A DNA stretch of 25,552 bases from a virus. Where the stretch lies: positions 1-25,552 of the IMG/VR virus record IMGVR_UViG_3300022591_000063. One strand, given 5' to 3'. The position numbers were made by a program, and so were the translations under genes. The notes below the pieces were generated by a model, which made no database searches, had not been told where the DNA came from, and saw nothing but the letters and a program-made list of their open reading frames with translations. This document shows, one piece after another, positions 12,763 to 23,940 of this stretch. Position 1 is the stretch's first letter. Every line of letters starts with the position of its first letter.

Positions 12763-13161
12763 GTGGACACTTTGAAGATCACGAAAGCCGATCTTAACGA
12801 GCGAAACGAATACGCCGTAGCGGATTCCCTGGAATTCCGAGGAAGCGTAGAAGTAGAAGCCAATTTGGGCGTCGTCAGGATTCGCGGGCGTGCCATCGTA
12901 GTCGGCGCCTTGAGCGTCAACGCTGGCTCCTCGCTGGAGGTCGGCGGGTCGCTGAAGGTCGGCGGGTCGCTGAAGGTCGGGCTATCGATCACGGCGAAAT
13001 GGATATCCTGTGAATTCCGGATATTCGCGGGATTGTGCGATTGGAAGATCCCCTCTCCTGAGGAGATGCGCATCAACGCCGAAGTACGCAAGGGCATTGT
13101 GTGCTTCGGCGAAGTGATGAAACCAGAAATTACGACAAAGAAGAAGGTGGCCGATGCCTGA
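12763..13161 (+). CDS. Beta-solenoid (bactofilin-like) protein, 132 aa
   Basis: GTG 12763 has a TAGGAG site upstream. The central part (about residues 20-75) repeats short beta stretches with Val/Leu/Gly, ending in three tandem SL(E/K)VGG hexapeptides that come from a tandem 18-bp DNA repeat. Such runs form right-handed beta-helices as in polymer-forming bactofilins. The C-terminal third has two Cys and a charged tail. It may assemble on the virion or act as a scaffold; no enzyme motif is seen. Its stop overlaps the next start. Confidence 0.6.
   Translation: MDTLKITKADLNERNEYAVADSLEFRGSVEVEANLGVVRIRGRAIVVGALSVNAGSSLEVGGSLKVGGSLKVGLSITAKWISCEFRIFAGLCDWKIPSPEEMRINAEVRKGIVCFGEVMKPEITTKKKVADA
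12931..12979 (+). repeat. 18-bp tandem repeat, two full copies and a partial third
   Basis: The unit TCGCTGAAGGTCGGCGGG occurs at 12931-12948 (one difference), 12949-12966, and partially at 12967-12979. It encodes successive SLKVGG turns in frame. Near-identity at DNA level points to recent expansion. Confidence 0.85.
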
Positions 13162-14117: not shown

Positions 14118-14386
14118 GCGTAATGAAAGCACTTAGTGTTCGTGGATTGCGGGCTAAGTTAAAAACTTCCCGAGAAACCATCAACGAGAAGGATCGGGAG
14201 TTGTACCGGCTGGGTCAGGAAAACCAGCAGTTGCGCGAGCAAAACCAGCAGTTGCGCGAGCAATTGGAGATATCACAAGGCCGTCAGTCTGTGCTGTTTC
14301 GCGCTCTTAATCAAGCGCTCAGTGCGGTCGAAGAGTCTCCTTACTGTACTTCTCCTGTGTCGTACAGGAAGCCGGTGAAGTTGTGA
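14114..14386 (+). CDS. Coiled-coil protein, 90 aa
   Basis: GTG 14114 overlaps the transferase stop (GTGA); ATG 14123 is an alternative. Residues about 8-60 are a long charged helix with heptads (LRAKLKTSRETINEKDRELYRLGQ then QENQQLREQ twice), the repeat arising from an exact 21-bp tandem duplication. The end is polar with a YRKPVK tail. It probably dimerises; it may scaffold the neighbouring enzymes, but this is inference. Confidence 0.6.
   Translation: MSVMKALSVRGLRAKLKTSRETINEKDRELYRLGQENQQLREQNQQLREQLEISQGRQSVLFRALNQALSAVEESPYCTSPVSYRKPVKL
14221..14262 (+). repeat. Exact 21-bp tandem duplication in the coiled-coil gene
   Basis: Bases 14221-14241 and 14242-14262 are identical and add one heptad of the coiled coil (seven residues), which keeps the register. 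Confidence 0.9.
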
Positions 14387-14598: not shown

Positions 14599-15401
14599 GC
14601 GTCTGGATGCTGTGCCCGTCCGCGCGCCCAGTGGAAGAAGCCGAGACGTGCTTCGCCCGATGGAGAGCCCTCGGCTACAAGCTGGCCGTTTTTCGCGAGC
14701 TCGTACGCGGCCCCGTCACGGCGGACTTACTGGTGAAGACACTGCCGTACCCCGGCTATGCGCTGGCACAGAACACCCTTTGCGCTCTGGTACTTGCCGA
14801 AGATTCCACAGCGGAGTGGCTGGTGTGCGCTGCCGACGACGTTCATCCGGACCCGACTTACGAGCCGGAAGAGATCGCTCTCCAGTGCGTGCATCAGTTT
14901 CTGGGGGATACTTTCGGCGTTATGCAGCCCACCGGGGATCGCTGGGGCGAGTGCCCGGCCTCTGAATGCCATGACTTCATCCCGCGTCCGCCGGGCTCGC
15001 CGATGCCTGATCGCTGTACGCTCTGCGGGCGCACCGAGGATGACGCGTTCCATCAGGGCGGCGCCTACATCGACCGCGTCGCTGGCTCGCCGTGGATCGG
15101 GCGCGAGTTCGCCCGGCGAATGTACGGCGGAAAAGGACCGTACTGGCCCGGCTACACCCACATGGGGGTTGATGAGGAACTGCGCGCCGTGGCACTCTTG
15201 CATGGCGTGTACTGGCCACGCCGAGATCTGATGCATTTCCACGCGCACTGGGGGCGTCCGCGCGCCGGCGAGCGCATCGGAAGAGCGGATCGGATGCCAG
15301 AGTTTCTTCGGACCGCGAACAGCGGCGAAGAGTGGAACCGGTACAAGAGACTGTTTGCCGAGCGGAAAGCCGCCGGATTCCCCGGATCGGAGCCATTATG
15401 A
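14595..15401 (+). CDS. Glycosyltransferase-like protein with zinc-site insert, 268 aa
   Basis: GTG 14595 overlaps the upstream stop and has AAGGAAG upstream. The first 85 residues have the GT-A pattern: VWMLCPSARPVEEAETCFARWRALGYKLAVFREL, then STAEWLVCAADDVHPDP, where ADDV (80-83) is a probable metal-binding motif. Between residues 120 and 152 lies C-x4-CH, then CTLC and a final FH, a likely structural zinc site inserted into the fold. The C-terminal part (WPGYTHMGVDEELRAVALLHGVYWPRRDLMHFHAHWG) resembles the acceptor side of GT-A enzymes. It probably adds a sugar in the same pathway as the flanking transferases. The family assignment is by motif only. Confidence 0.6.
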   Translation: MSVWMLCPSARPVEEAETCFARWRALGYKLAVFRELVRGPVTADLLVKTLPYPGYALAQNTLCALVLAEDSTAEWLVCAADDVHPDPTYEPEEIALQCVHQFLGDTFGVMQPTGDRWGECPASECHDFIPRPPGSPMPDRCTLCGRTEDDAFHQGGAYIDRVAGSPWIGREFARRMYGGKGPYWPGYTHMGVDEELRAVALLHGVYWPRRDLMHFHAHWGRPRAGERIGRADRMPEFLRTANSGEEWNRYKRLFAERKAAGFPGSEPL

Positions 15402-16156
15402 GTCTCATCAGCCTTCCTTTCGACGAGTGGATGGAAAACGTGGCGCTGGCGGCGCTGTCGTCGAAAGAGACCGTCTACGCCAGCTATGACATCGCACGGC
15501 TGGCAATCGAGCGCGGCGTGCCGGGCGACTTCGTTGAGTGCGGAGTGTACGGCGGTGCGCAGTGCGCGGCCATGGCGCGAGCGATTATGGATTGTGCTTC
15601 TGCTTCTCGAGATGACGCGAGCGCGTTCAAGGGCGGTCCTCAATGGATAAAGCACTATGATCGAGGCGAGGGAGCACGCCGCGTCCATCTCTTCGACAGC
15701 TTCGCTGGTATCCCACCCGCAGGGCCGGAGGATCGTGAGTTCCTCGAAGCCGGGCATCCCGAGGGTCTGAGCCTGTGCACGCTCGAAGCCTGCAAGGAGC
15801 ACATGGCGGCGTGGGGCATCCCTGATGAGTTGCTGGTATGGCATCCGGGTCCGTTCGGAAACACGATGAACATGCAGATGTTCGTCAGAAAGATAGACTC
15901 GTTGACGATGAAGGCATGCCCGGCCGAAATTGCCGTGCTTCGTCTGGACGCCGATCTCTACGACTCCACCCGCGTCTCCCTGGAGAACCTCTACCCGCTG
16001 GTGTCGCCCGGCGGCTGGGTGATCTGCGACGACTTTGACCTGAGCGGCGCGCGCAAGGCCGTAATGGAGCACGTCGGCCGGAACTTCGGACCGCTGGCCG
16101 TAATGGAGCACGTCGGCCGGAACTTCGGACCGCTGTACTGGCGCAAGGGACAATGA
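15398..16156 (+). CDS. TylF-family SAM-dependent O-methyltransferase, 252 aa
   Basis: The SAM-binding motif is GDFVECGVYGGAQ (43-55). RVHLFDSFAGIPPAGPED follows, then IAVLRLDADLYDSTRVSLENLYPLVSPGGWVICDDFD, the highly characteristic TylF (macrocin O-methyltransferase) block with the metal-binding Asp residues. Such enzymes methylate sugar hydroxyls. The C-terminus contains a perfect 39-bp tandem duplication that repeats AVMEHVGRNFGPL. ATG 15398 overlaps the previous stop. With the transferases it points to a methylated glycan. Whether the 13-residue insertion disturbs activity is unknown. Confidence 0.85.
   Translation: MSLISLPFDEWMENVALAALSSKETVYASYDIARLAIERGVPGDFVECGVYGGAQCAAMARAIMDCASASRDDASAFKGGPQWIKHYDRGEGARRVHLFDSFAGIPPAGPEDREFLEAGHPEGLSLCTLEACKEHMAAWGIPDELLVWHPGPFGNTMNMQMFVRKIDSLTMKACPAEIAVLRLDADLYDSTRVSLENLYPLVSPGGWVICDDFDLSGARKAVMEHVGRNFGPLAVMEHVGRNFGPLYWRKGQ
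16057..16134 (+). repeat. Perfect 39-bp tandem duplication in the methyltransferase gene
   Basis: Bases 16057-16095 and 16096-16134 are identical. The unit is a multiple of three, so the frame is kept and 13 residues are repeated. Absence of any divergence indicates a very recent event or an assembly duplication. Confidence 0.93.
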
Positions 16157-22341: not shown

Positions 22342-22457
22342 TGTCGAATTCCACACTGATCCTGCTGGTTTTTGCTGTCGTGTACGTGGGCTTGGACTTA
22401 TGGAAGAAAGCGAGACACTGGCAGGAGAAGAATAGGAAACATGGCAGACCTGGTTGA
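22341..22457 (+). CDS. Very small single-pass membrane protein, 38 aa
   Basis: ATG 22341 overlaps the previous stop (TGATG). Residues 5-20 are hydrophobic (TLILLVFAVVYVGLDLW), followed by a strongly basic tail (KKARHWQEKNRKHGRPG). The positive-inside rule places the tail in the cytoplasm. It overlaps the MuF gene by 17 bases. Function unknown. Confidence 0.5.
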   Translation: MSNSTLILLVFAVVYVGLDLWKKARHWQEKNRKHGRPG

Positions 22458-23940
22458 AGCAATCGACGGCCTGACAGAGGCCCTTCGCGAGTCGCTCAAG
22501 CACCCAAAGCACGCCACCACTCTCGCGCCGATCCACGCCGATTTGACGAAGCTGTTGGTTGGGCGCTTCAAAAAGCAGAAACGGGCGCTGCTGAAGGAAT
22601 CGCGGACGTGGCTCAAATGGCTGAGCGAGAAGTACTCGGAAGCGGCTGGCGACTTGAAAGCCTCCATCAAGCACGCCGTTACCGTAAACCTCGAGGCCGG
22701 AGCAACACTCACGTCCGATCCCTCGAGGTCCGACGTAGAAGAGTGGGCCGATGGCATCGCCGCAGCGGCGGAGGGGGCCGGGCGCGTGATCTCCGCCGAT
22801 CTGGGGATTGAGACGGCTCTGGAGAAGTCTAAGGCCTACGCCACCAGCTACTTGCGTGACAAGGGATTTCAGAAGCTCGCGGCGGACATCGACGACACGA
22901 CGCGCGAGCGCATCGCCGATGCGGTGGCAGACGTGTACGCTGGCGGTGGAAGCTACGCGGACGCGGTGAAGGCCATCGAAGACAGTTTCGACGCGATGAC
23001 AGAGACCCGGGCGAACACCATCGCGACAACGGAGCTGGCGGACGTGTACAACTCGGCGATGCTGGACTCGGCGAAAGAAGCCGGGGACATGCAGAAGACG
23101 TGGAACGCCGAGGGGCCGGACCCGTGCGAGGAGTGCATTGCCAATGAGGATCAGGGACCGCTGGATCTTGATGAGGACTTTCAGAGCGGCGACGACGCGC
23201 CGCCAGCTCACCCGAACGCTGTGTTAGCGGGATCTTCGTTTCGTTCCTATGGGCGACTGTTGCGGATGGTGGCCGCTGAATATGATGGACCTGCCATTAC
23301 GCTGAATACCGGGAAGTATCGTACTACCATCGGGCCGAATCATCCGATGCTCACCACGCATGGCCTGAAGGCTGCGAAACTCCTCAAGATAGGCGACGAT
23401 CTGGTTTGTGACCTTCGTCCAATCAGGTCGCCGCGGGCCGGTAGTGAATCTGATTTCGATCAGATTGTGCTCGTTGAGGATTGCTTCAGAGCGCTCCGTT
23501 CTTCCTTTGGCCTGTCGGGGATTGCCGCCTCCAGACACGACTTCCACAGCGACGCCGTGAGCGACCAACACGAAATCGAGGTTGTATTTTCCAAAGGGAA
23601 ATTGCTGTCTGAATTCGATCCCTGCGGCCTTCAGAGATGTGGCGAACTCGATTTCTCGCTGCCCGATATGGAGGCCTTTTACGAAACGCGTGTTGGCCCG
23701 CATACAGAGAATGCCGAACGAATCCTTCTGGCCGCGTCTAGCGGCATGCGCCGGCTCAACGTTGATCCTGCGACCTTTGGGCATTATGTTCTCGCTACAA
23801 TTAAGGATATCAGGATTGAACACTTCAAGGGAAGAGCTTTCGACGCGAGCACTTCAGTTGGTCTGTATTGTTCTGACGGCTTTGTGGTTGCAAACTGCTT
23901 GTGCAGCGTGGGTTTCGTGAAATCCGAGAAAGAGGAGTAG
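22441..23940 (+). CDS. MuF-type minor head protein interrupted by an intein, 499 aa precursor
   Basis: Residues 1-259 and 486-499 form the extein. The MuF C-terminal region has TETRANTIATTELADVYNSAML, then TWNAEGPDPCEECIANEDQGP and PPAHPN, joined after splicing to CLCSV to restore the typical HPNCxCSV motif. The mature protein would be 273 residues, normal for minor head proteins that bind the portal. Residues 260-485 are the intein (see the separate entry). ATG 22441 lies inside the small membrane protein gene with AGGAG upstream. The opposite strand of the intein codes for an endonuclease-like ORF. Confidence 0.82.
   Translation: MADLVEAIDGLTEALRESLKHPKHATTLAPIHADLTKLLVGRFKKQKRALLKESRTWLKWLSEKYSEAAGDLKASIKHAVTVNLEAGATLTSDPSRSDVEEWADGIAAAAEGAGRVISADLGIETALEKSKAYATSYLRDKGFQKLAADIDDTTRERIADAVADVYAGGGSYADAVKAIEDSFDAMTETRANTIATTELADVYNSAMLDSAKEAGDMQKTWNAEGPDPCEECIANEDQGPLDLDEDFQSGDDAPPAHPNAVLAGSSFRSYGRLLRMVAAEYDGPAITLNTGKYRTTIGPNHPMLTTHGLKAAKLLKIGDDLVCDLRPIRSPRAGSESDFDQIVLVEDCFRALRSSFGLSGIAASRHDFHSDAVSDQHEIEVVFSKGKLLSEFDPCGLQRCGELDFSLPDMEAFYETRVGPHTENAERILLAASSGMRRLNVDPATFGHYVLATIKDIRIEHFKGRAFDASTSVGLYCSDGFVVANCLCSVGFVKSEKEE
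23218..23895 (+). mobile_element. Intein (Hint domain), 226 aa, in the MuF gene
   Basis: The intein begins at Ala260 (AVLAGSSF, block A) and ends at Asn485 (GFVVAN, block G), with Cys+1 after it. Block B is TIGPNHPMLTTHGLKAAKLLKIGDDLV with the conserved His; block F is GRAFDASTSVGLYCSDG. Oddities: residue 1 is Ala rather than Cys or Ser, the usual block B Thr is Gly, and the penultimate His is Ala. Ala1 with Cys+1 fits class 2-like inteins, in which Cys+1 attacks directly; the other substitutions may mean slow splicing. No LAGLIDADG endonuclease is coded in the sense frame. Confidence 0.78.
23224..23784 (-). CDS. Endonuclease-like ORF (Vsr/EDxHD type) antisense inside the intein, 186 aa
   Basis: Reading leftward from ATG 23784 there is an open frame of 186 codons (GTG 23823 would add 13). 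Its middle resembles Vsr-like homing endonucleases of phages: REIEFATSL, then AAGIEFRQQFPFGKYNLDF, then VAVEVVSGGG, an R/E-rich helix, a LIEIRFTT strand, IVAYLEEFR and EHRMIRPDGS near the end. The D and VEV positions fit a PD-(D/E)xK core, but the Trp-His after GGG found in relatives is replaced by Asn-Pro, so activity is doubtful. Codons lie exactly opposite sense codons, and its TAA stop is the complement of intein codon 3, so it is confined to the intein. A weak promoter (TTGAAG 23823-23828, CTTAAT 23800-23805) is possible. Confidence 0.55.
   Translation of the reverse strand: MPKGRRINVEPAHAARRGQKDSFGILCMRANTRFVKGLHIGQREIEFATSLKAAGIEFRQQFPFGKYNLDFVLVAHGVAVEVVSGGGNPRQAKGRTERSEAILNEHNLIEIRFTTGPRRPDWTKVTNQIVAYLEEFRSLQAMRGEHRMIRPDGSTILPGIQRNGRSIIFSGHHPQQSPIGTKRRSR

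Follow-up and report, generated by a model that had tools for sequence, protein, structure and literature searches.

An intein in a phage MuF gene with a Vsr-like endonuclease frame on the opposite strand of its own codons

A head gene of the MuF type was found to be interrupted by an intein whose DNA, read on the opposite strand in exact codon register, encodes a Vsr-like nuclease. The insert is very probably a mobile intein that carries its homing endonuclease in this way. It lies in a 25,552-nucleotide stretch of viral DNA (IMG/VR record IMGVR_UViG_3300022591_000063; hereafter the window). The architecture is conserved in phages of many hosts, both frames are under selection, and the element has spread horizontally among divergent MuF genes.

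Results

The MuF gene is split by a predicted Hint intein

The MuF-type head morphogenesis gene occupies 22441-23940 on the plus strand and is split by the intein into an N-extein (22441-23217) and a C-extein including the stop codon (23896-23940). The N-extein matched Pfam Phage_Mu_F (PF04233) with an E value of 1.4e-6 and 29.4 bits, just below the gathering score of 29.6, and the gene matched phrog head protein families. Phage_Mu_F (PF04233) was matched by 61 of 95 N-exteins of the family and Phage_min_cap2 by 4 more, and the consensus of these 95 sequences (...CxxC...PPxHPN) has PPxHPN at its end. Judging from these matches, the host gene of the intein family is MuF in every recognisable case.

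The intein consists of 226 codons (23218-23895, plus strand), begins with A-V-L-A-G-S and ends with V-V-A-N, which is followed by C+1; A1, N226, and C+1 are the splice-site residues. Inteins have Cys or Ser as the nucleophile at position 1, or Ala in class 2, a C-terminal Asn, and Cys, Ser, or Thr at +1. The Asn|Cys junction was present in all 143 inteins of which both ends were located, and residue 1 was Cys in 127 and Ala in 13 of them, the window being of the Ala type. The block B His was invariant in the family. Pfam Intein_splicing was matched by 71 of 80 family members, and a Pfam search gave no match for the window's own intein. A profile of the sense family matched inteins in the PDB with an E value of 2.7e-10 (RecA PI-MtuI). 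In the window, the N-terminal Hint half (23218-23427, plus strand; blocks A and B, with NHPML as residues 41-45) gave an hmm i-E of 2e-28, and the C-terminal half (23779-23895, plus strand; blocks F and G) gave 1e-18. The AlphaFold model of the sense product resembled the Mtu RecA intein (Z 12.7, rmsd 1.7 Å over 106 residues), with pLDDT of 90-98 at residues 1-70 and 93-98 at residues 191-227, and a disordered stretch at residues 143-179 between the Hint halves. The sense frame also returned PDB matches to gamma-tubulin complex proteins, which were judged spurious. These data support the assignment of the sense product as a Hint intein in MuF. The first-pass annotation had drawn the MuF gene as open across an intein at 23218-23895 with Hint blocks A, B, F, and G in the sense frame, and its coordinates proved to be exact.

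Elsewhere in the window, an exact tandem duplication of 39 bases (16057-16135) was observed in the ORF at 15332-16156, doubling AVMEHVGRNFGPL, and short in-frame coding repeats with 18-base and 21-base units were present at 12931-12980 and 14220-14263.

The complementary frame resembles a Vsr-like nuclease

The minus strand of the intein is open, codon on codon with the sense frame, from 23853 to a TAA at 23224-23226, that is, beyond the ATG at 23784 of the 186-aa ORF (23224-23784, minus strand). In this register, the antisense wobble base pairs with sense position 1, and antisense position 1 with sense position 3. The coincidence of codon boundaries had been pointed out beforehand from the pairing of sense DFH with antisense VEV, and was confirmed: sense D108-F109-H110 (23539-23547) are the complement of antisense V-E81-V, and the whole sense motif D-F-H-S-D (DFHGD in the family; 23539-23553, plus strand) is the exact complement of the nuclease catalytic VAVEV. 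The TAA is indeed the complement of intein codon 3 (TTA, 23224-23226), and the frame never leaves the intein.

The antisense product of the window matched Pfam DUF559 (PF04480) with 22.2 bits, above the gathering cut-off of 20.6 (E 1.4e-4). Since only 13 of 100 relatives matched DUF559 at E 0.01, the antisense family stands at the edge of DUF559. Other Pfam matches among the 100 antisense members were MTES_1575 REase (63), HTH_23, HTH_58, and HTH_7 (24-27 each), and Vsr (2). When a profile of 100 antisense homologues was compared with the PDB, it matched 3HRL (E 9.5e-7) and I-Bth0305I (3R3P; E 1.8e-5), and its N-terminal part matched helix-turn-helix (HTH) proteins. The AlphaFold model had a confident core (mean pLDDT 84.9), and its best structural neighbour was Vsr (Z 11.7, 2.5 Å over 111 residues), followed by 3HRL (Z 10.5) and I-Bth0305I (Z 9.8). 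D70 (23575-23577, minus strand) and E81 (23542-23544, minus strand; the complement of intein F109) were invariant in the 100 homologues, and E44 (23653-23655, minus strand) and R98 (23491-23493, minus strand) were nearly so, being present in 96 and 99 of them. A Trp-His motif was found in 73 of the 100 homologues. An N-terminal region, in many cases with Pfam HTH matches, was present in 89 of the 100. Both are missing from the window and its clade. Taken together, profile and model support a Vsr/EDxHD-like endonuclease, which is under purifying selection and confined to the intein. The earlier suggestion of such a nuclease at 23224-23784 was therefore borne out by the matches to DUF559, 3HRL, and I-Bth0305I and by the Vsr fold predicted for the 186-aa product.

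The window's clade has lost motifs and is still selected in the antisense frame

The window belongs to a clade characterized by Ala1 and by a nuclease lacking both the HTH and Trp-His. The absence of Trp-His had been taken as a sign that the window's nuclease may be decaying. This was not supported: Trp-His was absent in all 9 clade relatives, E44, D70, E81, and R98 were retained, and antisense selection persisted. In the intein middle of one pair of relatives (L018/L021), identity was 0.96 in the antisense and 0.84 in the sense frame, with 20/1/6 differences at sense positions 1/2/3, and the corresponding identities for the window and L017 were 0.57 and 0.42. A start ATG recurred in the clade at ~37-38 codons from the intein end, preceded by a good Shine-Dalgarno (SD) sequence in L017 and L024 and a weak one in the window. 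It is rather unlikely that the nuclease is functional in the family and a fossil in the window copy and its clade. The missing Trp-His, the missing HTH, and the weak SD of the window would fit a fossil, whereas the clade-wide nature of the loss, the four retained residues, the selection still acting on the clade's antisense frames, and the recurrent start argue against it. Since the clade is under antisense selection despite its losses, simple decay of the window copy is improbable. Its nuclease may have a different specificity or be weakened, but the copy does not stand alone as a wreck.

The two frames occur together in MuF genes of many phages

Tblastn searches from either frame found the arrangement in MuF genes of Rhodococcus, Edwardsiella, Pseudomonas, Mycobacterium, Gordonia, Salmonella, Pantoea, Vibrio, Klebsiella, E. 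coli, and Haemophilus/Aggregatibacter phages. IMG/VR and GTDB genomes were then searched with the antisense protein, using sub-alignments of a 13-sequence alignment, which yielded 170 loci including near-identical copies. In 170 of 170 nuclease homologues, the complementary frame was stop-free across the match and always part of a longer ORF. A search of IMG/VR from the sense side confirmed 461 stretches, of which 80 were kept and 68 were unique. All of the 68 unique inteins matched the nuclease profile (E < 1e-10), and 66 had no internal antisense stop. The check for broken antisense frames in homologous inteins, which the first-pass annotation had named as evidence against double coding, thus did not refute it. 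In the intein middle, variation was shifted to the antisense wobble base in 44 of 47 pairs.

No nuclease-free member of this MuF-intein family was found among the 68 unique sense-side loci, which were collected with a query from the same family; other MuF intein types may exist. No free-standing, non-overlapped close relative of the nuclease was found among the 170 homologues, and when 294 genomes from the order of Pseudomonas sivasensis were scanned with a profile (E 1e-12), the antisense copy alone was returned. Weak matches of the nuclease profile in the centre genomes lay within very long open frames and are perhaps large MTES_1575-type proteins. An antisense stop with the sense frame open was observed in L026/L004, L024, and L025 and in L210 and L250; such stops were present in 2 of the 68 unique sense-side inteins and 3 of the 170 nuclease homologues, as expected if the nuclease may decay but the intein may not.

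In Escherichia phage fEg-Eco06 (L270, PQ141284; 1338-3275), a divergent member occupies a second insertion site within this MuF gene, STTC instead of HPNC, and DFYGDG replaces DFHGDG.

Empty sites and divergent exteins point to mobility

E. coli phage K1ind2, which was reported to lack the intein (PMC6776784), was compared with Snoke, and a precise empty site, PPAHPN^CRST, was revealed. Among 136 pairs of loci whose Hint halves were at least 55% identical, the MuF exteins (last 250 residues) were less than 30% identical in 106. The window and L017, for example, shared 72% identity in the N-terminal Hint half and 27% in the extein. A clean empty site and spread across divergent MuF genes are expected of a homing element.

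The homing endonuclease of a phage can also help it in competition with another phage, and a real antisense nuclease might accordingly serve to exclude rival phages or have been domesticated for a host or phage function. We give such a non-homing role a small chance, because the exact confinement of the nuclease to the intein, the clean empty site, and the spread over divergent MuF genes fit homing.

Selection acts on both frames

Differences in 47 independent pairs were tallied by sense codon position. In the exteins they numbered 5185/4420/7243 at positions 1/2/3, and in the last 20 intein codons, which lie beyond the antisense ORF, 148/126/426, so that position 3 was the most variable in both regions. 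The intein middle gave 3492/1763/2525, with more differences at position 1 than at position 3 in 44 of the 47 pairs, and its identity was higher in the antisense frame (0.598) than in the sense frame (0.446). Since the variation is highest at position 1, the antisense protein is the selected one in the intein middle. In the N-terminal Hint half, where both frames are needed, the counts were 1018/494/1199, and constraint on both frames was again seen toward this half.

The constraint differs along the nuclease. In the part from the HTH to YNLDF, synonymous codons were used freely at conserved antisense codons, with an excess constraint of 0.07 bits, indicating that the sense protein is a free linker there. 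Opposite the catalytic VAVE, wobble bases were fixed, and GTG was used for V80 in 99% of cases against a background of 26% (z 15.6). The sense D-F-H-G-D was conserved like the antisense residues in the two columns compared (D 98% versus V 79%; F 91% versus E 100%), which indicates that both strands are constrained opposite VAVE.

The sense DFHGD(G) (window 23539-23553; A9/A10 columns) was nearly invariant, constrained beyond the antisense need, and located outside the canonical intein blocks. AlphaFold placed its region (sense residues ~84-125) in a partly structured subdomain.

Each frame bars only TTA, CTA, and TCA in the other, so that both proteins can still use every amino acid. In the nuclease genes of 109 non-redundant loci, none of these three codons was seen where ~396 were expected from local codon usage; these loci had been preselected for intact Hint ends, and the 170 of 170 open complements are the safer figure, because that set was unfiltered. 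As a control, 447 windows of 250 codons were taken from other long ORFs of the same loci, and 114 of them had an open codon-on-codon complement, namely 1 of 83 at GC up to ~0.55 and 113 of 364 at ~0.6-0.7.

Sense codon usage in GC-rich DNA might produce the antisense ORF as a by-product without function, and the finding that ~30% of ordinary long ORFs in GC-rich loci have an open codon-on-codon complement would be in line with this. A mere by-product is, however, extremely improbable: it would account neither for the profile and fold match to Vsr-like nucleases with an invariant D and E, nor for the displacement of variability to the antisense wobble base, nor for antisense-conserved codons in a linker without sense constraint, and the intein complements are open also at GC 0.35-0.5.

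The 170 open complements, the PDB profile matches, and the wobble-shifted variation refute the by-product reading. A chance open frame was likewise rejected, on the basis of the open complements, the missing TTA, CTA, and TCA codons, the wobble-shifted variation, and the control windows.

Start, stop, and expression signals of the antisense gene

In full-length members, the nuclease ATG was mostly located 20 or 22 codons inside the C-terminal end of the intein, and the ATG at 20 codons pairs with the block F His codon of GHVYNLE. The complement of the Tyr-Asn-Leu-Glu codons that follow makes SD-like GAGG, GGAG, or AAGG, and such sites were found at 47 of 98 nuclease starts compared with 57 of 365 internal ATGs. 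The nuclease stop commonly pairs with codon 2 of the intein. Both ends of the nuclease gene therefore fall within the intein, and the gene moves together with it. In L010 and in the window, scans of the DNA preceding the antisense start recognised no sigma-70-like promoter, and transcription is therefore the least understood step.

Salmonella phage PK2 (L268, PV446483) is one of the few records that list the antisense ORF, as hypothetical protein XRA40007.1 (1504-2313, minus strand), while the Snoke annotation is without any entry for it.

Discussion

We propose that the sense strand would be translated as part of MuF and that, as motifs and model suggest, the two Hint halves would meet across the mostly disordered linker and splice out to restore the head protein. 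From the antisense strand, a separate transcript would be translated into an endonuclease of the Vsr/EDxHD type, which in most members carries a helix-turn-helix at its N terminus. This nuclease would cleave MuF genes that lack the intein, at the HPN^C(R)C codons, and the whole element would be copied in during repair. We infer cutting and homing from the empty sites, the movement between unrelated MuF genes, and analogy with the family.

Like mini- and full-length inteins (Mtu RecA, Mxe GyrA; KlbA-type for Ala1), the sense product has the Hint fold with its blocks A, B, F, and G and the Asn|Cys junction, and it is inserted where the host protein has a conserved motif. Known endonucleases of inteins are in frame, or free-standing beside split inteins. 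Dassa et al. in 2009 reportedly described relatives of EDxHD/Vsr-like nucleases as free-standing between split-intein halves. In known full-length inteins the endonuclease lies in frame between the Hint halves, whereas the present one is encoded on the opposite strand and extends over the N-terminal Hint half.

The nuclease resembles I-Bth0305I (3R3P) in its catalytic fold, its E...D...E core, and its carriage by phages, and, in members with the N-terminal HTH region, in the coupling to DNA-binding modules. I-Bth0305I is, however, a group I intron protein, and EDxHD enzymes of introns have been described (PMC3943268); the present gene is antisense inside an intein. Vsr mismatch endonuclease is the best fold match, and most members have its V-x-V-D/E...W-H motif. 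In contrast, Vsr is a non-mobile, non-overlapped cellular repair enzyme. Porphyra group I introns (PMC2585584) carry His-Cys box homing endonuclease genes antisense to the host element; the other strand there is intron RNA and encodes no protein, so there is no double coding.

In the ShiLan element (PMC11855218), a homing nuclease is also hidden out of frame with the host frame kept open, but it is of the HNH type and on the same strand, with no splicing domain and no intein. Open insertions with hidden nucleases and without splicing motifs thus exist, but that our insert is such a tolerated insertion rather than a splicing intein is hardly credible in view of the Intein_splicing matches, the invariant block B His, the Asn|Cys junction in 143 of 143, and the Hint model.

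The intein in the capsid morphogenesis gene of Guernseyvirinae (Snoke, LSPA1; PMC6776784) is the same element as the double-coded intein analysed here and was recovered in both phages. It was described there as an intein only, and the antisense nuclease was neither mentioned nor annotated. A full-text literature search turned up no report of an endonuclease encoded antisense to an intein; this search did not reach Gosselin et al. 2025 (bioRxiv 10.1101/2025.01.02.630785), Gorbalenya 1998, or Dassa 2009. The greatest threat to the novelty of the arrangement is the preprint of Gosselin et al., which deals with actinobacteriophage inteins and refers to a non-canonical architecture in its title. 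The parts are all of known kinds; their combination, a double-stranded coding of intein and nuclease, is new within the literature covered.

The results probably represent a class of mobile inteins that is widespread and apparently obligate. In this class, one stretch of DNA would carry conserved functional sites on each of its strands, the nuclease VAVE being the exact complement of the constrained sense DFHGD. In well above 100 phage loci, the same codons encode an intein on one strand and a nuclease on the other. Few natural examples of long antisense protein coding are as clear, since both enzymes can be identified and selection is measurable on both frames, and the exteins and non-overlapped intein ends provide natural controls within the system. 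The antisense coding explains why such inteins seem to be endonuclease-free, and annotation pipelines mostly overlook such genes. It raises the questions of how an antisense gene is expressed within a late head operon, what role the sense DFHGD motif plays, and whether double coding spares the nuclease the decay that homing genes usually undergo. If the proposed reading is true, a splicing element and its homing enzyme are locked into one sequence.
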